A DNA stretch of 64,000 nucleotides from Paludibacteraceae bacterium (GTDB lineage: Bacteria; Bacteroidota; Bacteroidia; Bacteroidales; Paludibacteraceae), in assembly GCA_024401435.1 (NCBI GenBank), contig JAKSLB010000002.1, positions 124,001 through 188,000 on the forward strand, in the 5' to 3' direction. This document shows, one piece after another, positions 37,854-50,587 of the stretch (the first letter of the stretch is position 1; each line of letters begins with the position of its first letter). A program made the position numbers and the translations under genes. The notes below the pieces were generated by a model. That model saw nothing but the letters and a program-made list of their open reading frames with translations, was not told the DNA's origin and did no database searches.

Positions 37854-38201
37854 ATGAATATCGATCAAAAAAAACTTGACGAGACAATCGTCTATTTCCA
37901 AACCAATCCGAAAGTAGAACTTGACGAACAGTTTTATCCTGTGTATACGTACGAAATGAGTCAGGCGTTTGTATTTCTGGAATTGGATGTTGATTATTTA
38001 AGTAATTACGAAAAGATTACAGCCAAGGGAATTCGCATAGAAGAGATGAACATTGGACAATTGAGCGCCATGTTCACCTTCATACAGCGTGGCGAACGTT
38101 TCTGTGACGGTCATATGGCCACGTACATCGAAGATGGAACAGTTTTGAGACTCCTTCTGCGACTGAAAGAATTGAGTAAATCATTACAAAACGATTTATA
38201 G
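37854..38201 (+). CDS. DUF6508-family small protein
   Basis: 115 residues. The C-terminal motif GERFCDGHMATYIEDGTV followed by a Leu/Arg-rich helix (LRLLLRLKEL) resembles DUF6508; family assignment is from memory. Function is unknown. The conserved RFCDGH block suggests a conserved Cys/His feature. It is a lone gene 137 bases downstream of tRNA-Gln, and base composition by eye is more GC-rich than its neighbours, so acquisition is possible. Its last bases, ATTTATAGAAATC plus CCTA-like sequence, recur at 54660-54679 in a decayed copy. Confidence 0.75.
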   Translation: MNIDQKKLDETIVYFQTNPKVELDEQFYPVYTYEMSQAFVFLELDVDYLSNYEKITAKGIRIEEMNIGQLSAMFTFIQRGERFCDGHMATYIEDGTVLRLLLRLKELSKSLQNDL

Positions 38202-38598: not shown

Positions 38599-41500
38599 AT
38601 GAAGAATCATAAATTTAGTTTAGAAGGGAGTCAACGTTTGTTGATATCTTCATGTCAGAGAGATTTTAAAATAAAGCAAAGATGGAGATATATGCTATGC
38701 ATTTTCTTTGTGTTTTTTTTATCTGTTCCTTCTCAAAAAATTTTTGCGGTTGATGATTGGGATCCGTTATCAAACTCTTTTACATGGAATTTGGAAAAAG
38801 GTGTTATCGAATATAATGTAAGGTATTTTCAAACATGGGGCGGGCTTGGTGAAGGTCGTTGTGGAGCTGCTCCGTTCAATTTTACGCAAAACACGAATAA
38901 AGTATATAAAATAAAGTTAGGACAAAACAATAGAGGTGAAACATTTTATCTTGAACCAATACCACAGGGAGCTTATACGCCTACATACACTATAGTACAG
39001 TCGAGTGGCGGTGAATATTCTAAAGCTGTTAAATTTAGCATGCCCGTATCACAAAAAGATTTAAATTGTTCTGGTGGTGTTAGTATTACAGTAGATGGAA
39101 CGTGGTGGCGAGAAGGTGCTGCCACAGATCAGAGTATTAATTATACGGATTACAAGGTAATGATACCTGTAGAAGTTGCTGAATATAAAATTGGAGATGT
39201 TGAGTATGTTAAATATAACAATAATCCATGCATTGCTATAAATTGGACACGTACAATAACTGGTAATGCGTCTAAATTGGGAAATATCGTTTTATGTGAT
39301 AAAAATGGGAATCAAATTGTTAGCAGTAAGGGTGTTACATCTATAAAAGAATGTGATAGTCAAAGTGGTGTGTTTTATGTTTGTTACGAAGATATTAATT
39401 TAAATGAGGCTTCAACCTATAAAATAAAACAGACTTATATTCCATCTGAAAACAATACTATTTCCTATACTTCTGAGTCGAATGATATTAATATAAATGC
39501 CTTTCCTCAAATTACGGATTTTCATAGTTCCGTTGATTATCAAGGAAAAAAAATCAAATTGGAATGGAAGTTGAATAATGCTCCTACTAGTAATTATGAT
39601 GATAGTCAGTTTGTTATTACAGTAACTAAAACTGAAAAGACTGAAAGCGATACGACATTTACAATTAAACAGGATTATAAAGGAGGAAAAACATCATATG
39701 ATGCAACGATTGAATTTAAAGAAAATGAGGTTTCCAAGTATAATATTTCCATAAAACGAGAAAATAAAAATAAGTCAGCTTGCTGGGAATCTAAATTTCA
39801 AAAAAACATAACGTTGAATATTAGTTCTGAACATTGTTATCCTGTAGATGTTAATGCGAAACTTTCTGATGATAATCAATCTGTTGAATTGTCATGGACA
39901 CAGAGTGGTTCTGTATGGACAGATGGTTCTGTTATGAAAATTATTCGAACCAATGTTACGAACTCTTCTACCTATGTATTTGAATTAAAACAGAATGAAT
40001 ATGAAAAAGGATCTTTTCGTGATGATTTAGTGACTAATTGTAATGAATATTCATACGAGATTAGAATGATTCCTGGCGGTTCTTATAAGGAGAAATCAGA
40101 ATTAGTAAAGGGTACATTGATTCCGACTAGTATAGGTACCGTAAAGGATTTCTCTATATCAAAAGGATATTATTCTGATATGGTTTTGTTAAGGTGGCGT
40201 ACAACTTCATCTTTTGATGAAATAGCAGTTGAACGTCGTGAATATCAAAATGAGTCATCTGTGTTTGATAAAATTCAAACGGTTAAATCTATATCAAGTT
40301 CAAATTATGTGTTTGAGGATAAAAGCTGTTTGCCTGGTGTTTTGTATGAGTATAGAGTTTATGGACTTGTAAATTGTGCGAAAGGACTTATATCATCCGT
40401 TGATACAATTTATGGTTATGGGTTTAGAACACCGACCGGTGATTTTTATGGACGTGTAACTTACGAAAATGGTCAGTCTGTAGATTCTGTGGAGATAAGG
40501 TTGAATTCGGATGATAACATAGATACTTATGCCCTTTCGTTTGAGAACGATGGTGTGGCAGAAATCGAAGGTGGTAAAGTTTTATCTGTTTCAGGCCCAA
40601 TTACTATACAAGCTTGGATTAATCCAAGTAAAATATCTTCTGATAAGATGAGATTGATTCGTAAGTCGGATATTTATGAGGTGGGATTGATAGATGGTAA
40701 GGTGTATTTTATTGTTGGTGATAAGTCCATAGTGACGAATAATTCTCTTGATATTAATTCTTATACACATGTCACGTCTGTTTTTGAATCAGATAGTTCT
40801 GTGCTGAAAATTTTCATTAATGGAGAATTAGAAAAATCGGGAAAATTTGAAACTGTATCATTAAAAGCTAATGGTGGTAATGTATTCTTAGGTGAGAATT
40901 ATGAAGGATTAATAGATGAGGTTCGTTTATGGAGTAGAAATCTTTCTGATTTAGAAATCAATAGTGATTACACTCGCTATTTAATAGGAGATGAAAATAG
41001 TTTAGATGCTTACTATACGTTTGATTTTGTTACAACTGACCAATTTTATGATAGATCATTTAAAGGGACTATATTCAATGAGAATCATGGAACTTTGTCT
41101 AATGTTGGAATCGTAACTAGTTACTTGACAAGAAATCAACTAACTTATAAAGGTTATACGCGAGAAGATGGAACTTATACGGTTCGTGCAGTCCCTTATT
41201 ACGGAAATGGAACTGCTTATACATTAACGCCAAGAAAAGGTATCCATCAATTCACTCCAACTCAGGAGATCCGCTTTATTAGTGAGAAAGTTCCAAGTCA
41301 TACGGTGAATTTTGTTGATAATAGTTCATTTAGTGTGACTGGAAAAGTTTGCTATAGTGGTGGTAATTATCCTGTGGAAGGTGTTCAATTTAAAATTGAT
41401 GGCGTTCCTGCTTTATCGAAAACAGGTGAATATATAAAGACAAATGAGACGGGTGATTTTACTTTAAGCGTTCCTGTCGGTATTCATGAAGTTAAGGCTG

Positions 41501-44500
41501 TAAAAGATGGTCATACGTTTGAATTAGATGGTCGCATTTGTATGAGTGATAGTCTACATTCGGATCGTAATTACCAAGATAGTGTTTCGGGAGTAAAACT
41601 TTATGATAATACAAAAGTTAAATATATTGGTCGTATTTGTGGTGGTTCTGTTCAAGAAGAATTACCTGTTGGATTCTCACTTTCCAAAAACAATATGGCT
41701 AAGGATATGAAGATCGTCCTTTCACCAAAAGAAAGCAAATATGATTTACAGGCAGATTCGAATGTGTACTCTAGTAGAGTTGCTCATCCAGTTCTTACGA
41801 AAGATTTGAATAAAAATGTAAAGCCACAGACAACTTTGGTGGATTATAACAGAGGGGATATTACTATCCATGTTAATGATACTACAGGTGAATTTATTGC
41901 TTGGGTTTATCCTATTGAGTACAATATAAATTTATCTGTTTATGGTTATGGCGATGAGTCTAATAAAATTACAGGAGATGGTTCTTCTGTTAATCTTACA
42001 TCTTATGCTGCAAGTCAATACGAGAAGTATGAGTATCAAGATACATTATTTGCCAAGGGAACCGATTCTATCATTGAAATTAAAAATTATACCGATTCTG
42101 TGGATTATAGACAGAAACAAGTCTTTAATAAACGAAATCGTGCTAAAATGGAAGTGACTCAGCTTTCTAAAGCGGGTCGTGAACTTGCCTATTTTGGTGC
42201 AAAGGAATATTCTTCAACGAATCTTATGGGTGAAGAGACAATCGTTCCTTTGTATGTTGATTCAACGAAACAATATACATTCGGAATTCCTGCATTCATT
42301 ATGAATGAAACTTACAATATTCACTATCGTATTTTTGAAGAGTATCCTTATTATAAGAATTCGAAGAAAGATATTGATGAAGAAAAAACGGATAAAGTGG
42401 ATATAGAAGGGGCTTCGGTTGCTTTCAATAATAAGATGGCTTCCTATTCGGAGTTGGATACGATAAATCAAATCTACACCTTCAAGGTGGATGAACCGGA
42501 TATGACAACTGCAAAGGGAACAATTGCAGCTACCTTTACTTATGGTGATAGTGAAAATCCAACAAGCGTTTCATGGGAAAACCCAATGGGAAATGCTAAT
42601 GGAGAAGCTCTTGTGTTGGGTTCTCATCAAACTGGAACCAATTTTGTAACAGGTGGCCCTAATCAAATGCTTTGCGTTCTTCGTGACCCACCTGGATCAA
42701 ATAGTTATTCTTATTTGGAGAAAGGTACTTCCTTTACTACCTCTTCCTCTTATACGGGTTCTTTTAATCAAGAGGGATCGGAAACATGGAATACTGGATT
42801 TATATCAAAAACAATGCAAATCACTTTAGTGGGAGGGGTAGGAACTGGTACTACTACTGTTGAGAGTAATACAGGAATATCTGCAGGTGTTGTTCATGAA
42901 GAAGAGTATACGGGTTCAAATTCGAAATCAACGAATACAACCTTAACTACACGTATTCAAACAAGTGAAGACCCTATCTACGATGGTGCAAATGGTGATG
43001 TCTATGTGGGCTATTCTACCAACATTTCGTTTGGTACAATGAACTCTGTTTCAATTGTCCCTATCGCCTTGTTTGATAGTTTAGGAGGTGACGATTATTA
43101 TGAGGTTACTTATGCTAAGGTGGATTCATTTGCTGTCGTAAAGACAAAAGGTATTTCAGCTATACAAAACTTTAATACCATGTTCGCTTACCCTCAAATA
43201 TACATCGAACAAACATTGATACCTAATTTGGAAGATTTGAGAAATTCTTTGTTGCTTCCTATTGCTGAAGTGGATACTTCAAAAATGCAAGCCAAGGCAG
43301 ATGCTGATCAAGAAAATTATTATGTGTCATTAGTCCCTCAATCTGATCCTACGTTTGGTCAAGAAAATAGTTATGTCGTTTATTATACAACGTCGAAAGT
43401 AAATTGTGATACGATTCATTATCTGAATCAATCCATCGAATCATGGGAAAATGAGTTAAGTAAAAATGATAGCATTAAAGTGTCTGCTTCTAAATTGTTA
43501 CAAAACTATTCATTCCAAGCTGGAGCTAATATAGAGTACAGTGAATCCTATTCTTCCACTCTTGCTTCCTCTCATTCTTTTAGTGTGAAATTAGGTGTTT
43601 CCTTAAATGATGATTATGAAGTAACGGTTGCTAGTATTCACTCGAAGTTCGAGTTTGAAGAAACGTTTACCACAACACAAGGAGGAGAGTTTGCTGATGA
43701 GGCTGAAGCTAGTCATTCGAAAGGCTTTGTCTTGGCAGAAGATGGAGATGACGATTATTTAAGTGTGGATGTACTTTATGAAGATCCTAATTTTGATGAA
43801 ACGTATGTTAATTCTGTAGGCGCAGGAAGCGCAGATACAAGTAAACTAGCAACAAAATCTTACTATCCAACATTTGTGTTCCGTACCCGTGGTGGTGCTA
43901 CTAGTTGTCCTTACGAGGATGCTTATAAAGCAATCCACTGGAAAGGCCATGAAAGCAGTATTATTAATGCGGCTACCATGAAGTTGGAAGAACCTTCTAT
44001 TGATATGCCACAGAAGTTCATTGAAAATGTACCTTCTGGCGAAGATGCATACTTGACTGTTTATATGAAGAATAATTCAGAAACAGGTGAAGATCAATGG
44101 TTTGATTTACGTATGGTTGATTCTTCTAATCCGTATGGTGCAATACCAAGTATTGATGGTAACTCTATGTCTGGATTTGCTCTGGAATACTTAGTGCCTG
44201 CGGGTGACATAATAGAAAAAACAATTGCCATTACGAAAGGTTCTGTATTGAACTATGATAATTTGGCGATTGCTCTTTGCTCAAAATGTCAGGCAGATCC
44301 AACAGGTTTCTTGGATGTTATTTCCGATACGGTTTATTTCTCTGTTCATTTTATTCCTTCTTGTACGGATGTTGCTATTACGCAACCTTCTAACAATTGG
44401 ACGTACAATACAAATTGTGCAATTGATACGGTGGATGGACTCGCTAAACATTATATGCCTATCTCTATCTCTGGATTCGATGTTAATTATACTGATTTCG

Positions 44501-47500
44501 AACATATCGAATTACAATATAAGCCAGCTTCAGGTTCAGATGACGAATGGATCACATTGGCTTATTATTATAAGGAAGATACGTTGACACAAAAGCAGAT
44601 AAAGAATGGATTCAATGCCTTTACAATCAATCCAAGTGATGGTGGCGTTATTTCTTATAATTTCTTTATGGATGCTCTCCCTGATCAAAATTATGACATT
44701 CGTGCTGTTTCTTATTGTAATATAAATAACGAGTTGTACGAAAATCCGTCAGAAATTGTTTCTGGAATAAAAGATATGTACAATCCTCGTTTGTTTGGTT
44801 CTCCAAAACCTGCAAATGGTGTTTTAACTATCGATGATGATATTCGGATTGACTTTAATGAAACAATCGCAGAAGGTATGCTTATCTCTGATAATTTTGA
44901 AGTAACAGGTATTCGTAATGGTGCTACTACAGATCATGACGTAGCAATTGACTTAGATGGCGAAAATGATTATCTTGTTACTGAAGCAACTCGGAACTTT
45001 GCTAATAAGGATTTGACATTCGAATGTTGGGTTAATTTTGATTCACTTCAAAATGCAACCTTCTTTAGCCATGGAGATGTTAATAAATCCATTGAAATGG
45101 GTATGAATAAAAAAGGTAATGTGATTGTTAAAGTCGGTGATAAGGAAATCGTTTCTGAAAAAGCTGCTTCATGGGAAAAATCTTCATGGAATCATGTTGC
45201 TTTGGTTTACGACAATGCTAATCAAACGATGACTGCTTATGTGAATTACGTGGCAGTGATTGATGGTGCAGCAGTTGATTCATATCTTGGTAATGGTATA
45301 GTTGAAGTTGGTCGAAGCGTTTCTAAACAATCTAATTATTTCAACGGTAAGGTTGATCAATTTAGAATTTGGAATGAAGTACGTTCTTCTTTAACGATTC
45401 AAGCAAATTGTAATAAGCAACTCTCGGGTAACGACGTTAATTTAATTGCTTATTATGAGATGGATGAGGCCAAAGGAGGTGCAACAGAGGATAAGGCTCG
45501 CGGTGCAAATTTGGTGATGAAAGGTGGAGAATGGGCATTGCCTGAAGGACGTTCCGCTTCATTTGATGGAAAGAGTTACATTGCTTTAAATACAGGTTCG
45601 TCGGTTATCGCTTCTGATATGGACTTTACATTAGAGTTCTGGTTTAATGCAGCATCAGGATCTAAGAATCAAACAATTCTTTCTTCTGGAGATGGTGTTA
45701 ATGATCAATATGCGAAGATAGCTGATGTGTTTAGCATCGGATTTGATTCTTCTAGCAAGTTAGAATTCCGCCATAATGGTCAACAGATTGCTGTTAATGG
45801 AAATTATGCTGACAATAATTGGCATAACTTTACATTGGCAGTAAGCCGTTCTTCTGGTATTGCTCGTATCTATATGGATGGCGAGTTAAATACTTACTTT
45901 GATGCTGATATGGTTGGAAGAATTGCTTCAGATGTTATTTGCGCTGGTGCTCATTATTGGCATACAAATATTGAAAAGGATAGCGTTGATCAATTCTTTA
46001 CGGGTAAAATAGATGAGATTCGCCTTTGGAAGTTGTATCGTCAACAATCTCAGATCGAGTCTTTCTATAATCAAAAGGTGAATGGAGATGAAATGGGCTT
46101 ATTGCTTTATTATCCTTTTGAACATTATATTACATGGCAAGGTACTCCAGAAATGCAATTTACATTGGAGGATAAGGCAAACCCAAATAATGGCAAAGCT
46201 AATAAAAATGGTAATGTTACAGAAACGACAAACATACCTCCAGTAAAGACAATTGGTGCTGTCTCTCCTTTATTGTTCGATTGGGTGGTGAATGATGATG
46301 CTTTAATTATTAACTTGAAAGAACAAGATTCTCGTATCGAGAAAACGATTGTTAATTTCACAGTAAATAAAATTCAGGATGTCAACGGAAATTATATCGT
46401 TTCTCCGATTACTTGGAGCGCTTATATTAGTCGCAATCAATTAAAATGGATGGATGATGTTGTTAAAATCAACAAGAAAGAGAATGAACCTTATACATTC
46501 GAGATGCCAATTGTTAACAATGGTGGTTCTGTGATTAACTATAATCTACAAAATATGCCATCGTGGTTGAGTGCATCTTCTGAATCAGGTTCTATCAATC
46601 CATTGGAAAAGAAAACACTTGAATTTGAAATAGATCCTTCATTGGCTGTAGGTTCTTATGATGAGGTTGTTTATTTGTCTAATTCAAATAATGTAACCGA
46701 ACCATTGAAGTTGAACGTTGTTGTGGAAGGTAATACTCCTGATTGGAGTGTGGATCCAAGCAAGTATGAATACAATATGGTTGTCTTTGCTCAAGTGAAG
46801 ATCGACAATGTGTTCTCTAACGATGAAAAGGATATGTTAGCTGCATTCTATCAAGGTGAGTGCGTGGGCGTTGCTCATATGAGTTATGATAAGACACTAG
46901 ATATGTGGTCTGCTATGTTGACTGTCTATTCTAATTCCTCTTCTTCTCATCACCTTGAATATAGAATATGGGATGCAAGTAATGGAATGATGTTAAGTGC
47001 AACTTCATCTGAAACAGCTAATTTCGTTAATGATAAAGTTATTGGTAAACCAAATACTCCAGTTGTATTCTCTAATGGAACAATAAAATATCAGAATATT
47101 CAATTGGGTAAGGGTTGGAACTGGGTATCCTTTAATTTGAGTAACAAAGGAATGTCTGAATTAGATTCTTATCTTGAGAGTGGAGTATGGGGAGCTAATA
47201 GTATCATTAAGAATATAACAAGTGGTTCTGCCAACTATTCTCCAAATCGTGGTTCTTGGGTAATGTCTGATTCTGCTTTCAAAATGGATAATAAGAGCAT
47301 GTATAAGATTTATTCTGATGTGGAACAAACTTTATCAGTTTCTGGTTCTGAGTTAGATTTAACATCAGTAGAGATTCCAGTTAATAAATCATGGAATTAT
47401 ATTTCTTATTTGCCAAGTATCAGTATGACATTAAAGACGGCATTGTCTAATTATGATGCTGCAGAAGGTGATTTGATTAAGTCAAATGATGGATTCGCAA

Positions 47501-48198
47501 TGTATTATGGAAATGAGTGGATTGGATCTCTTAATAGTTTACAACCAAATAGTGGTTATATGTTGAAGAATACTAGTTCAACAGATAAGACATTTAAGTA
47601 TCCTACTACTGCTACTTCATTACGTTCTAACAGTATTACAAAAGTAAATTCTTCTGCATATGAATCGAATATGAACATTGTTGCCTTTGCTCCTCAGAAA
47701 GAGGATGGTGATGTGGTTCGTGCTATGGTAGGCGATAAAGAAAACGAAGTGGTTGAAATTGCATTGAATGATGAATATGCTCTTCAATTTATTACGGTTT
47801 CTGCTAAGGATGGTGATAATATTCAGTTCGTGTTGGATCGTAAGGGTGAGACATTCGTAGCAACAAACCAAGTGATATATGCTGCGGATGATGTTTATGG
47901 CTCTCCAAAAAATCCAGTCGTGTTGAACTTTAATATAAATGGTTCTGGTGAATCTTTGGCAGTTTATCCAAATCCTGTTGTTGATGATTTAACAATTTCA
48001 GGAGTTGTTAGTCAGGAAGGTGATGCTTTACTTGAACTTTTTGATGTTGCTGGTAGTCTTATTTATTCTGGTAGCGTATCAACATTCAATAATGTATTAA
48101 ATACGAGCATCAATATGACTAATCTCATTCCAGGTTCTTATATGTTGAAGGTTACTCAAAATGAAGAGGTTAAAGTCTTTAAAATTGTTAAGGAATAA
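38599..48198 (+). CDS. Giant multidomain surface protein: FN3/Ig-like, three LamG domains, T9SS C-terminal domain
   Basis: 3199 residues. The N-terminal signal is unusually long (hydrophobic core MLCIFFVFFLSV at about 32-43, mature from AVDDWD); an internal Met at 32 could be the real start. Seen in order: a beta-rich region at 50-610 including FN3/Ig-like modules; a carboxypeptidase-regulatory-like module (about 613-880) interrupted by a LamG domain (about 644-808); a second regulatory-like module (about 915-985); a large region of unknown fold with Ser/Thr-alternating beta stretches (about 1376-1481 and 1633-1730); LamG 2 (about 2115-2294) and LamG 3 (about 2316-2511); a module with AAFYQGECVGVAH (about 2723-2800); a GWNWVSFNLS module (about 2837-2980); a related module (about 3021-3110); and a T9SS sorting domain from 3120 (VYPNPVVDDLTISG). 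It is probably an adhesin or surface scaffold; function is unproven. A lipoprotein gene follows by 18 bases. Confidence 0.9.
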   Translation: MKNHKFSLEGSQRLLISSCQRDFKIKQRWRYMLCIFFVFFLSVPSQKIFAVDDWDPLSNSFTWNLEKGVIEYNVRYFQTWGGLGEGRCGAAPFNFTQNTNKVYKIKLGQNNRGETFYLEPIPQGAYTPTYTIVQSSGGEYSKAVKFSMPVSQKDLNCSGGVSITVDGTWWREGAATDQSINYTDYKVMIPVEVAEYKIGDVEYVKYNNNPCIAINWTRTITGNASKLGNIVLCDKNGNQIVSSKGVTSIKECDSQSGVFYVCYEDINLNEASTYKIKQTYIPSENNTISYTSESNDININAFPQITDFHSSVDYQGKKIKLEWKLNNAPTSNYDDSQFVITVTKTEKTESDTTFTIKQDYKGGKTSYDATIEFKENEVSKYNISIKRENKNKSACWESKFQKNITLNISSEHCYPVDVNAKLSDDNQSVELSWTQSGSVWTDGSVMKIIRTNVTNSSTYVFELKQNEYEKGSFRDDLVTNCNEYSYEIRMIPGGSYKEKSELVKGTLIPTSIGTVKDFSISKGYYSDMVLLRWRTTSSFDEIAVERREYQNESSVFDKIQTVKSISSSNYVFEDKSCLPGVLYEYRVYGLVNCAKGLISSVDTIYGYGFRTPTGDFYGRVTYENGQSVDSVEIRLNSDDNIDTYALSFENDGVAEIEGGKVLSVSGPITIQAWINPSKISSDKMRLIRKSDIYEVGLIDGKVYFIVGDKSIVTNNSLDINSYTHVTSVFESDSSVLKIFINGELEKSGKFETVSLKANGGNVFLGENYEGLIDEVRLWSRNLSDLEINSDYTRYLIGDENSLDAYYTFDFVTTDQFYDRSFKGTIFNENHGTLSNVGIVTSYLTRNQLTYKGYTREDGTYTVRAVPYYGNGTAYTLTPRKGIHQFTPTQEIRFISEKVPSHTVNFVDNSSFSVTGKVCYSGGNYPVEGVQFKIDGVPALSKTGEYIKTNETGDFTLSVPVGIHEVKAVKDGHTFELDGRICMSDSLHSDRNYQDSVSGVKLYDNTKVKYIGRICGGSVQEELPVGFSLSKNNMAKDMKIVLSPKESKYDLQADSNVYSSRVAHPVLTKDLNKNVKPQTTLVDYNRGDITIHVNDTTGEFIAWVYPIEYNINLSVYGYGDESNKITGDGSSVNLTSYAASQYEKYEYQDTLFAKGTDSIIEIKNYTDSVDYRQKQVFNKRNRAKMEVTQLSKAGRELAYFGAKEYSSTNLMGEETIVPLYVDSTKQYTFGIPAFIMNETYNIHYRIFEEYPYYKNSKKDIDEEKTDKVDIEGASVAFNNKMASYSELDTINQIYTFKVDEPDMTTAKGTIAATFTYGDSENPTSVSWENPMGNANGEALVLGSHQTGTNFVTGGPNQMLCVLRDPPGSNSYSYLEKGTSFTTSSSYTGSFNQEGSETWNTGFISKTMQITLVGGVGTGTTTVESNTGISAGVVHEEEYTGSNSKSTNTTLTTRIQTSEDPIYDGANGDVYVGYSTNISFGTMNSVSIVPIALFDSLGGDDYYEVTYAKVDSFAVVKTKGISAIQNFNTMFAYPQIYIEQTLIPNLEDLRNSLLLPIAEVDTSKMQAKADADQENYYVSLVPQSDPTFGQENSYVVYYTTSKVNCDTIHYLNQSIESWENELSKNDSIKVSASKLLQNYSFQAGANIEYSESYSSTLASSHSFSVKLGVSLNDDYEVTVASIHSKFEFEETFTTTQGGEFADEAEASHSKGFVLAEDGDDDYLSVDVLYEDPNFDETYVNSVGAGSADTSKLATKSYYPTFVFRTRGGATSCPYEDAYKAIHWKGHESSIINAATMKLEEPSIDMPQKFIENVPSGEDAYLTVYMKNNSETGEDQWFDLRMVDSSNPYGAIPSIDGNSMSGFALEYLVPAGDIIEKTIAITKGSVLNYDNLAIALCSKCQADPTGFLDVISDTVYFSVHFIPSCTDVAITQPSNNWTYNTNCAIDTVDGLAKHYMPISISGFDVNYTDFEHIELQYKPASGSDDEWITLAYYYKEDTLTQKQIKNGFNAFTINPSDGGVISYNFFMDALPDQNYDIRAVSYCNINNELYENPSEIVSGIKDMYNPRLFGSPKPANGVLTIDDDIRIDFNETIAEGMLISDNFEVTGIRNGATTDHDVAIDLDGENDYLVTEATRNFANKDLTFECWVNFDSLQNATFFSHGDVNKSIEMGMNKKGNVIVKVGDKEIVSEKAASWEKSSWNHVALVYDNANQTMTAYVNYVAVIDGAAVDSYLGNGIVEVGRSVSKQSNYFNGKVDQFRIWNEVRSSLTIQANCNKQLSGNDVNLIAYYEMDEAKGGATEDKARGANLVMKGGEWALPEGRSASFDGKSYIALNTGSSVIASDMDFTLEFWFNAASGSKNQTILSSGDGVNDQYAKIADVFSIGFDSSSKLEFRHNGQQIAVNGNYADNNWHNFTLAVSRSSGIARIYMDGELNTYFDADMVGRIASDVICAGAHYWHTNIEKDSVDQFFTGKIDEIRLWKLYRQQSQIESFYNQKVNGDEMGLLLYYPFEHYITWQGTPEMQFTLEDKANPNNGKANKNGNVTETTNIPPVKTIGAVSPLLFDWVVNDDALIINLKEQDSRIEKTIVNFTVNKIQDVNGNYIVSPITWSAYISRNQLKWMDDVVKINKKENEPYTFEMPIVNNGGSVINYNLQNMPSWLSASSESGSINPLEKKTLEFEIDPSLAVGSYDEVVYLSNSNNVTEPLKLNVVVEGNTPDWSVDPSKYEYNMVVFAQVKIDNVFSNDEKDMLAAFYQGECVGVAHMSYDKTLDMWSAMLTVYSNSSSSHHLEYRIWDASNGMMLSATSSETANFVNDKVIGKPNTPVVFSNGTIKYQNIQLGKGWNWVSFNLSNKGMSELDSYLESGVWGANSIIKNITSGSANYSPNRGSWVMSDSAFKMDNKSMYKIYSDVEQTLSVSGSELDLTSVEIPVNKSWNYISYLPSISMTLKTALSNYDAAEGDLIKSNDGFAMYYGNEWIGSLNSLQPNSGYMLKNTSSTDKTFKYPTTATSLRSNSITKVNSSAYESNMNIVAFAPQKEDGDVVRAMVGDKENEVVEIALNDEYALQFITVSAKDGDNIQFVLDRKGETFVATNQVIYAADDVYGSPKNPVVLNFNINGSGESLAVYPNPVVDDLTISGVVSQEGDALLELFDVAGSLIYSGSVSTFNNVLNTSINMTNLIPGSYMLKVTQNEEVKVFKIVKE

Positions 48199-48216
48199 TT
48201 ATTAATATTGTAAGAT

Positions 48217-48861
48217 ATGAAAAATTGGATATATTTTATAATTGCAGCATTCTTGGCTTTTTCATTCTATTCTTGTAAGGATGACGATGACTATAGTGCT
48301 GAATTAGCAGAGATCAAGAAATTGGAAAAAGAATCGATTGCTAAACTTGATAGTTTAACTAATTTACAGGAAGAACTAAAACAACAACAAGAAGCATTGA
48401 ATAAGCAACAAGAGGAACTTAATCAGCTTCAAAAAACTATATTGGAGAAAACTAAGGAGAAAGAGGACACAACGACTTCGAATAACAATAACGAAGAACC
48501 AAAGGAGAATTATAAAAAGTATGAAAATCCTAATTGGAAGTCAGTTAAAACGTCTGGTGATTATGCTTATTCCATGACTGTCACTTTTGAATTGCCTTCA
48601 GATTTAAAAACAAATGCCTCAAAAAATGATGTTATTGCTGCATTTGTCGGTTCCGAATGTCGTGCTGTAGCGAAAGCGAATGGTGGTGTATTCTTCTTAA
48701 ATGTTATTGGAACAGGTGAAGAATCAGAACCAGTAACCTTCCGTTATTGGAATGCAGGTAATGGTTATTTGTATGAATCTACGATTTCATTACCTTTCAC
48801 ATCTGATTACATTTATGGTGTGGTAGATAATCCTAAATCATTTGATTACAAACAATTATAA
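48217..48861 (+). CDS. Lipoprotein with coiled coil and a domain shared with the giant surface protein
   Basis: 214 residues. A lipoprotein signal ends in lipobox FYSC (Cys20), followed by an acidic DDDD stretch. A heptad-like, Gln/Glu/Lys-rich coiled coil spans about 28-80 (LQEELKQQQEALNKQQEELN) and a low-complexity Thr/Asn linker about 82-95. The C-terminal domain (about 108-212) contains DVIAAFVGSECRAVA, FFLNVIG and VTFRYWNAGNGYLYES, matching the module at 2723-2800 of the protein encoded 18 bases upstream. The acidic residues after the Cys resemble lipoprotein export signals described for Bacteroidota, so it may be exposed on the surface. It is probably cotranscribed with the giant gene, perhaps as its anchor or partner (inference). 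Confidence 0.85.
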   Translation: MKNWIYFIIAAFLAFSFYSCKDDDDYSAELAEIKKLEKESIAKLDSLTNLQEELKQQQEALNKQQEELNQLQKTILEKTKEKEDTTTSNNNNEEPKENYKKYENPNWKSVKTSGDYAYSMTVTFELPSDLKTNASKNDVIAAFVGSECRAVAKANGGVFFLNVIGTGEESEPVTFRYWNAGNGYLYESTISLPFTSDYIYGVVDNPKSFDYKQL

Positions 48862-48879
48862 ATGAGGTTTCTATTGCAG

Positions 48880-48906
48880 GGAGGACATTCCATTGGGGTG
48901 TTCTCC
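48880..48906 (+). terminator. Hairpin after the lipoprotein gene
   Basis: GGAGGACA and TGTTCTCC pair (one G-U) around an 11-base loop, with TTGTTTATTTCTTT following. Confidence 0.7.
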
Positions 48907-48976
48907 TTGTTTATTTCTTTGTAAGCTCCCTGTTGAAAAATAAGACCTTTAGATCGAGTTCTATTGTTTACAAAAA

Positions 48977-49007
48977 TTGCTTTTGTCGCAAATGTTTTAT
49001 ATGTTTG
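48977..49007 (+). promoter_or_regulatory. Promoter of the GH5 gene (TTG-N20-TATGTTTG)
   Basis: TTG at 48977-48979 and TATGTTTG at 49000-49007 are 20 bases apart. The leader to 49103 is about 90 bases. Confidence 0.6.
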
Positions 49008-49102
49008 TATCAAGAATTTTTTGAGGATGATTTCTCAACCTTAAATTGAGAAAAGTAAAGACATTATGTTAATGTATTAATAGCCAATAGAACATTATTG
49101 TT

Positions 49103-50587
49103 ATGGTAATTACAAAAAAATGGGTCTCCGCAATTGCCGCAGTTGCTTTTGCTTTGACCACTCATTCTGTCATGGCAGGTCCGGTACATGGACAAGATGC
49201 CATGGAGATTTCTCGTTTAATGTACACAGGCTGGAATGTAGGTAATTCATTAGATGCCATCCAGCAAGGATATTCAGATCTTGATACTGAATTGGGGTGG
49301 GGAAACGCCAAAATCACGAAGAGTATGATTGATAATGTGAGAAAGACTGGTTTTAGAACGCTTCGAATTCCAGTCAGCTGGGGACAACATACCTATAAAA
49401 GTGGTCAGTATCAATACAAAATTGACGACAAGTGGTTAAGTCGTGTGAAAGAGGTGGTGGATTATGGTATTGACAATGATATGTATGTCATTCTCAATAT
49501 TCACCATGACAATGGAAGTCAATTTGACCATCCTTATTTTTGGCCGACTAACAACACAAAAGACCAGTCAGTCAGGTATGTGACGGATATCTGGACTCAG
49601 TTGGCGGAGTGCTTTAAGGAGTATGATCAAAGATTGATTTTTGAAACATTGAACGAACCTCGTATTGTGGGTGATCGATATGAGTGGTGGTTTACTCCTG
49701 TGGATAATCCGAGTCAGCAACAGGTGGTGGAGGCTATGGGTGTCATCAATGCTATGAATCAGGCTGCAGTTGATGTTATTCGTAATAACGGACATGAAAA
49801 CAACCGTGACCGTGTAATCCTTATCCCAGGTTATGATGCATCTCCGGAAGGCGCCGTTACTAACAAATTCCAGCTTCCGAACGATCCTTCACAAAATCGT
49901 CTCGGTATCGAAATTCATGCCTATCGTCCAACAGAACTTTGCCTTTCGGGCCCTCTTACAATGTTTCAGGAAAGTGATAAACAGGCTATCCGTGACGTGC
50001 TTCGTCCTTGTTACGAAAAATATGTGCAAAGAAATATCCCGGTAGTGATTGACGAGACTTCTATTTCAGATAAGGATCAAGGTGATTGGACTCGTATGCA
50101 ATGGATCGAAGCATTTTATGGAATTGCTATGGAATACAAAATGCCTTGTGTCTTGTGGGACAACGGTACCACATGGGAAGCTTACCAATTGGGATTAAAG
50201 CAAGGTTGGGCAGACCCAAATCAGAATGGAGAGTGCCATGGATTTATGAACCGTAGTACAGGAGAATGGAATCAACCGCAAATGATACAGAAAATTATGG
50301 AAGTGGTGGGTGAGGATCCGAACTTGTCAGATCCGTCTAACGTAGAGAATACACTTGCCTTAAATGACAATATGGTTTTGACACTATCTCCCGAAGAAAT
50401 TGGTTTCGTGAAGTGTGGGACTTCTGTAGAGGTGAACATGGTGACTTTGTTCAATGCGCAGGGGGCGATGGCAATTACAGCCTATCATGTGGAATCATTA
50501 TCGGTCACTTCATTGCCTGCTGGTCTTTACTTGGTAGTGGTAGTATCGGCTGATGGTGTATATAAAGAGAAAATAATGATTCGATAA
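49103..50587 (+). CDS. Secreted GH5-family endoglucanase with a divergent T9SS C-terminal domain
   Basis: 494 residues. A signal peptide (to about residue 25, MAG) is followed by a GH5 TIM barrel, most like subfamily GH5_4: TGWNVGNSLDA near 42, FRTLRIPVSWGQH near 92, LNIHHDNG, acid/base Glu185 in FETLNEPR, EIHAYRP near 273 and the nucleophile Glu318 in VVIDETSI, then VLWDNGTTWEAY. It cleaves beta-1,4-glucan or related beta-mannan or xyloglucan backbones. The last 80 residues (LSVTSLPAGLYLVVV near the end) look like a T9SS sorting domain, more diverged than the other four here. The gene looks more GC-rich than its neighbours. Confidence 0.92.
   Translation: MVITKKWVSAIAAVAFALTTHSVMAGPVHGQDAMEISRLMYTGWNVGNSLDAIQQGYSDLDTELGWGNAKITKSMIDNVRKTGFRTLRIPVSWGQHTYKSGQYQYKIDDKWLSRVKEVVDYGIDNDMYVILNIHHDNGSQFDHPYFWPTNNTKDQSVRYVTDIWTQLAECFKEYDQRLIFETLNEPRIVGDRYEWWFTPVDNPSQQQVVEAMGVINAMNQAAVDVIRNNGHENNRDRVILIPGYDASPEGAVTNKFQLPNDPSQNRLGIEIHAYRPTELCLSGPLTMFQESDKQAIRDVLRPCYEKYVQRNIPVVIDETSISDKDQGDWTRMQWIEAFYGIAMEYKMPCVLWDNGTTWEAYQLGLKQGWADPNQNGECHGFMNRSTGEWNQPQMIQKIMEVVGEDPNLSDPSNVENTLALNDNMVLTLSPEEIGFVKCGTSVEVNMVTLFNAQGAMAITAYHVESLSVTSLPAGLYLVVVVSADGVYKEKIMIR

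Follow-up and report, generated by a model that had tools for sequence, protein, structure and literature searches.

A giant type IX-secreted protein and the lipoprotein encoded next to it share a domain in a gene pair that recurs in Bacteroidota

The window analysed here is a stretch of 64,000 nucleotides from a Paludibacteraceae bacterium (assembly GCA_024401435.1, contig JAKSLB010000002.1, positions 124,001 to 188,000 of the forward strand). It contains a gene for a 3199-residue protein of the type IX secretion system (T9SS), hereafter the giant, and, 18 bases further on the same strand, a gene for a lipoprotein; an original prediction, made from the letters of the window, had pointed to a domain shared by the two proteins. 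We found that two modules near the C-terminus of the giant (M1 and M2) and the C-terminal module of the lipoprotein are one homologous domain, and that the gene pair occurs widely in the phylum Bacteroidota. The domain is without a family in the libraries searched; no description of the pair was recognised in the literature searched, a search outside which most subscription papers lie and which is not proof of absence. The two-part surface system that had been predicted, with the lipoprotein anchoring or docking the giant, is partly supported: we give a probability of roughly 0.57 to the lipoprotein being a surface pedestal that holds the giant on the cell.

Homology of the modules was examined with profiles. 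Profile-profile comparison related the three modules to each other with probabilities of 99.66-100; in seven controls, for which other parts of these giants were compared, the values were 0.90-7.89. For the window itself, class profiles were built from 72 other loci and E-values were scaled to 50,000 sequences. The M1-class profile found the lipoprotein at residues 103-214 (2.6e-14), the M2-class profile found both the lipoprotein (7.9e-14) and M1 of the giant (5.9e-13), and the lipoprotein-class profile found M1 (2.2e-15) and, weakly, M2 (0.0064). A profile search was thus able to return the significant matches between modules on which the original prediction depended. When the last 114 residues of the lipoprotein were shuffled, one of 500 sequences entered the E<=1 list of any of five profiles (0.049). 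It weighs against homology that the M1-class (0.83) and secreted-partner-class (0.1) profiles detect the window's M2 only poorly. As a single sequence, M1 matches the lipoprotein at 1.8e-4, weaker than the profile matches. Because M2 alone, used as a single-sequence query, did not find the window lipoprotein, its membership is established by profiles and not by the motif as first written.

Conserved positions of the module include Trp, Met, Asp, Ala, Phe, Cys, Gly and Pro. No Pfam or NCBIfam family matches the module above cut-off and no PDB sequence covers the region. In a Pfam scan of 23 modules every listed family matched a single member (best E 0.0027), and a scan of viral contigs yielded no relative. 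An intermolecular disulfide through the cysteine of the GEC turn was considered and dropped, the module being without Cys in 8/72 M1, 12/72 partner and 47/72 M2 copies.

Next, recurrence of the pair was followed through other genomes. The lipoprotein has a match at 1e-5 in 22 of 101 close genomes, and ten full-length lipoproteins start, by called start codons, at most 18 bases past giants of 3194-3294 residues (the window's own counted in both). With an alignment of 23 modules the domain was detected in 34/295 genomes of the order and 9/296 of the phylum, the window genome being included in both. A scan of named genomes with the C-terminus of the giant returned at least 593 stretches and at least 477 relatives, and the best 80 of these relatives gave 79 loci; these were picked by the giant alone, and the set leans toward kin of the window. 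Paludibacteraceae, Prevotellaceae, Bacteroidaceae, Fulvivirgaceae, Saprospiraceae and Chitinophagaceae are among the 76 loci filed as Bacteroidota. Two module contigs, L201 and L226, are filed under an archaeon and a gammaproteobacterium and are probably misbinned; one further locus is without a phylum. In 73 of the 79 loci the gene directly after the giant carries the module. Among the other six, L195 and L236 stop at a contig edge and in L178 the partner is cut by the contig end; L205, L211 and L224 gave no partner at the thresholds used. The pair is therefore present in 73 of 76 evaluable loci, and no additional open reading frame with the module was seen in any of the 79. An even draw supplied 54 further loci for examination, not counting G170:C14, G182:C3 and those of the window genome; of its 36 giants with an M1-class module, 24 have a module gene next to them.

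The partners themselves are diverse. Lipoproteins make up 55 of the 73 (51 by a lipobox rule and L165, L192, L194 and L210 by eye from the alignment), and the remaining 18 are other proteins, mostly T9SS-tailed. By home-made profiles a type A tail is present in 8/73 partners and a type B tail in 3/73, leaving seven: L234 and L241 have Por_Secre_tail above cut-off and L212 has no tail (Pfam), L206 is the same locus as L123, for which the profiles gave a type B tail, and the partners of L214, L226 and L228 extend past the stretch examined. Partner bodies differ widely: modules can stand two or four in tandem, there can be as many as 15 cadherin stretches, and leucine-rich repeats (LRR) or immunoglobulin (Ig) domains occur. 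Some partners are T9SS-type proteins that have cadherin, LRR or Ig domains instead of a lipid. Partner lipoproteins composed of four tandem modules were noted in L199 (7757-9259) and L202 (5558-7030).

Spacers between lipid and module measure 9-17 residues in 17 lipoproteins, 77-136 in 14, and in two they reach 275 and 349. Many partners, among them the 17 lipoproteins with so short a spacer, have no room for a coiled coil, which was therefore rejected as the essential link; other partners are T9SS-type without a lipid. Recurrence of the pair agrees with the original prediction, and the coiled coil, which that prediction gave to the anchoring lipoprotein, is a local variant found in one partner group and not a defining feature. 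In the window lipoprotein, folded alone with AlphaFold, the module consists of confidently modelled strands behind a 58-residue helix. The heptad signal of this helix is weak, being reached by 153/2000 shuffles; in five relatives it was reached by 0-2/2000 shuffles in four and 31/2000 in one.

A third gene follows in some loci. It encodes a barrel-like protein with an OmpA domain in 13/73 and a barrel alone in two more. The former type, with its Pfam OmpA domain, is conserved in L046 (5000-6178), L047 (12353-13531) and relatives, the N-terminal barrel being our own reading. By hand count, the third-gene barrel accompanies 13 of 17 lipoproteins with a spacer of at most 17 residues and none of 16 with a spacer of at least 77, a split that may be a single event given that the long-spacer group is mostly one family. 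In 3/73 loci the third gene is PorP/SprF, each time behind a type B partner (home-made profiles), and a CHU_C tail and a PorP/SprF neighbour both occur in relatives such as G070.

The position of the module follows a rule. In 54 of 55 lipoprotein partners it ends at most 11 residues from the C-terminus (the exception is L231). The 18 other partners all carry it close to the N-terminus, preceded by 18-120 residues in the stop-to-stop frame and followed by at least 85-1995; four of these 18 frames are truncated where the stretch ends. Giants have 35-102 residues after the last module in 78/79 loci, and the 363 residues in L196 are explained by its M2 being unscored. The module ends both proteins of the window, in the giant just ahead of the sorting tail. 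The chief point in favour of a pedestal is that, whichever end is anchored, the partner module occupies the end distal to the inferred membrane anchor. Distances also co-vary: over 53 loci the correlation of the partner module is 0.87 with M1 and 0.80 with M2, and after removal of two other giant regions the values are 0.58 (partner-M1) and 0.60 (partner-M2), versus 0.40 for M1-M2. This co-variation, suggestive only, is consistent with a link between partner and giant.

Since the pair recurs and the module keeps its position in each kind of partner, anchoring or docking is the best reading. The giant would leave the cell through the T9SS and its sorting tail would be removed, and the lipoprotein, carrying an acidic run after its lipid cysteine, would be flipped across the outer membrane so as to face outward. 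Its helical stalk would then lift the module above the membrane, where binding to M1, M2 or both at the C-terminus of the giant would keep the latter on the cell. A T9SS protein of type A or type B may take the lipoprotein's place in other lineages, and the third gene may sometimes supply a PorP/SprF barrel or a barrel with an OmpA domain. The giant carries a C-terminal sorting domain above the curated cut-off, as type A T9SS cargo does, and Por_Secre_tail gives 36.3 bits (cut-off 27). The window genome encodes the sortase PorU (NF033707, 978.8 bits, cut-off 420) and the translocon SprA (SprA_N, 516.7 bits, cut-off 27). The lipoprotein has the sequence pattern of surface-exposed (LES) lipoproteins, a lipobox Cys with polar and acidic residues at +2 to +6 (CKDDDD); this Cys is invariant in 32/32 aligned rows, the window lipoprotein included, and 45/51 partner lipoproteins have at least two D/E at +2 to +7. 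According to an excerpt of a published account, polar and acidic residues after the lipid cysteine direct lipoproteins to the surface (PMC5080379).

Several points weigh against the pedestal. Three of the 76 evaluable loci are without a partner and 12 of the 36 giants of the even draw have none next to them; the second giant of the window genome (L005, G000:C128, 11308 to the stretch end) bears M1 and M2 and has no adjoining partner. The position rule is trivial for short single-domain lipoproteins; what it tells comes from the types with long spacers and from the 18 others. Co-variation between operon neighbours can come from common descent, which was not fully removed. A second anchor may be unneeded: PorU processes type A proteins, and in Porphyromonas gingivalis these are linked to anionic lipopolysaccharide (A-LPS) (PMC9143113). 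Finally, we infer the function of the pair and the binding of the partner module to the modules of the giant, and, on sequence grounds, the location of the lipoprotein on the outer face.

Other explanations have to be considered. The module might constitute a polar docking code, in which the C-terminal modules of a giant bind the far-end module of the next gene product, so that T9SS proteins would form a head-to-tail string that follows the order of the genes and runs from the tip down to an anchored base. We regard this as possible, though doubtful. Three consecutive module-bearing giants in G281 (L246, L135; G281:C37:19644-40509) have the look of such a chain, the former two with an N-terminal module, a C-terminal module pair and a type A tail and the third with an N-terminal module and a type A tail; this is seen in one genome only, and for all the G281 modules the partner-class profile gives the best score, so that their ends are not distinguished by class. 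A comparable principle operates in polyketide synthases, cytosolic enzymes whose helical docking domains provide matching ends on consecutive gene products. The likeness is that matching ends would set the order of products, and it is drawn from arrangement, not from sequence or fold. It is rather unlikely that the module is instead a beta-sandwich that binds a ligand such as a glycan, with giant and partner co-expressed and binding the same ligand without mutual contact; the anchor-distal partner module, the near-C-terminal modules of the giant and the fixed gene order would then be left unexplained.

An improbable alternative makes the partner a dedicated export helper or carrier that, like PorP/SprF, reads the C-terminus of the giant during T9SS transport and provides no lasting anchor. 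It gains from PorP/SprF being the third gene in 3/3 type B cases among the 73 partners and also in seven type B loci of other sets, G070 included, and from SprF being described as both carrier and anchor for SprB in the sections drawn on here (PMC12635249, PMC9143113). Yet the known export signal is the type A tail itself, and lipoprotein, type A and type B partners share the same place, which probably fits a surface role better than a role at the translocon. Tandem duplication would leave three related modules in adjacent genes, and certain giants are without a partner; that the partner is a by-product, left when the giant's tail was duplicated or split and retained for expression or a separate function, nevertheless appears very improbable. 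In a tree of 216 modules M1 forms a clade of its own in 72/72 loci, M2 in 67/72 and the partner module in 51/72, so the split looks old with each position kept, and the partner is kept at the evaluable loci in the proportion given above though its anchor and spacer change completely.

The proposed pedestal resembles known systems in part. SprB-SprF and PG1035-PorP-PorE also have a T9SS protein held on the surface by another protein, and the holder of SprB is the product of an adjacent gene; a barrel takes part, PorP-like barrels being regarded as what holds type B proteins, and in one case PorE with its OmpA-like wall-binding domain stands behind (PMC9143113, in excerpt). Here, in contrast, the giant is type A-tailed and the proposed link is the shared module, a putative beta-sandwich. 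In the window, CHU_C and PorP_SprF gave no Pfam match in the giant, the lipoprotein or the next gene, and the CHU_C-tailed partner with a PorP/SprF neighbour typical of anchored type B proteins is not found there. Like the LES lipoproteins, as excerpted, the lipoprotein has polar and acidic residues after its lipobox cysteine, but those named are Sus-type and glycan-acting proteins, whereas the one described here ends in a module shared with the giant (PMC5080379).

Coordinates of the pair are collected in Table 1.

Table 1. Features of the giant-lipoprotein gene pair (window positions)
Feature	Position	Strand	Basis or content
Giant T9SS type A protein, 3199 residues	38599..48198	+	three LamG_3 stretches (Pfam scan), unnamed middle region, BACON-like domain, M1, GWNW linker, M2, type A C-terminal sorting domain
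BACON_2-like domain directly before M1	46465..46704	+	24.3 bits, below the 25-bit cut-off (Pfam)
Module 1 (M1), giant residues 2715-2828	46741..47082	+	profile comparison
Inter-module linker region, conserved motif GWNW(V/I)SFN	47083..47646	+	
Module 2 (M2), giant residues 3017-3114	47647..47940	+	profile comparison
T9SS type A C-terminal sorting domain	47962..48195	+	TIGR04183, 40.3 bits, cut-off 23
Partner lipoprotein, 214 residues	48217..48861	+	lipobox Cys20 then KDDDD, helix, C-terminal module
Predicted single helix (spacer), lipoprotein residues 26-83	48292..48465	+	AlphaFold
Partner module, lipoprotein residues 106-214	48532..48858	+	profiles, AlphaFold
Terminator-like stem, 16 pairs, T-rich tail, 3' of the lipoprotein gene	48876..48910	+	pattern match only

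The sorting domain is the sole NCBIfam match of the giant, the modules being uncovered above cut-off, and the lipoprotein has nothing above cut-off in Pfam or NCBIfam scans. A pattern scan of 48000-49200 listed no terminator-like stem between the two genes. The middle region of the giant (about 42640-44560) bears the motif VLRDPPGSxSYxYLEKG, also present in relatives L164-L242; its RDPPG lies at 42682 (residue 1362) in the window and is present in 58/62 giants with more than 2000 residues in view, and neither PDB nor Pfam gave a match to this region. A long basic leader precedes the hydrophobic signal segment in giants (38599-38750 in the window; L035, 4328-13912; L036, 384-10142 and 10977-13920). 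The leader, which we take to be reminiscent of extended signal peptides, is alike in L035 and L036, and in L036 it is common to two genes adjoining the pair.

Upstream of the giant lies a small gene (37854-38201) that matches DUF6508 with 46.6 bits (cut-off 23.6). Directly downstream of the pair, beyond the terminator-like stem, a GH5 cellulase is encoded (49103-50587) with a weak, sub-threshold match to a T9SS tail. The gene after the second giant of the window genome (C128) encodes a 2046-residue protein with, in our reading, a CHU_C-like tail. The source bacterium is a relative of gut species.

To our knowledge, it is a largely open question what keeps type A T9SS giants on Bacteroidota cells other than A-LPS linkage. 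If the lipoprotein does act as a pedestal, an anchoring route would be added beside A-LPS linkage and PorP/SprF, and the recurrence of the pair suggests that this may be a general way to hold giant proteins on the cell surface.
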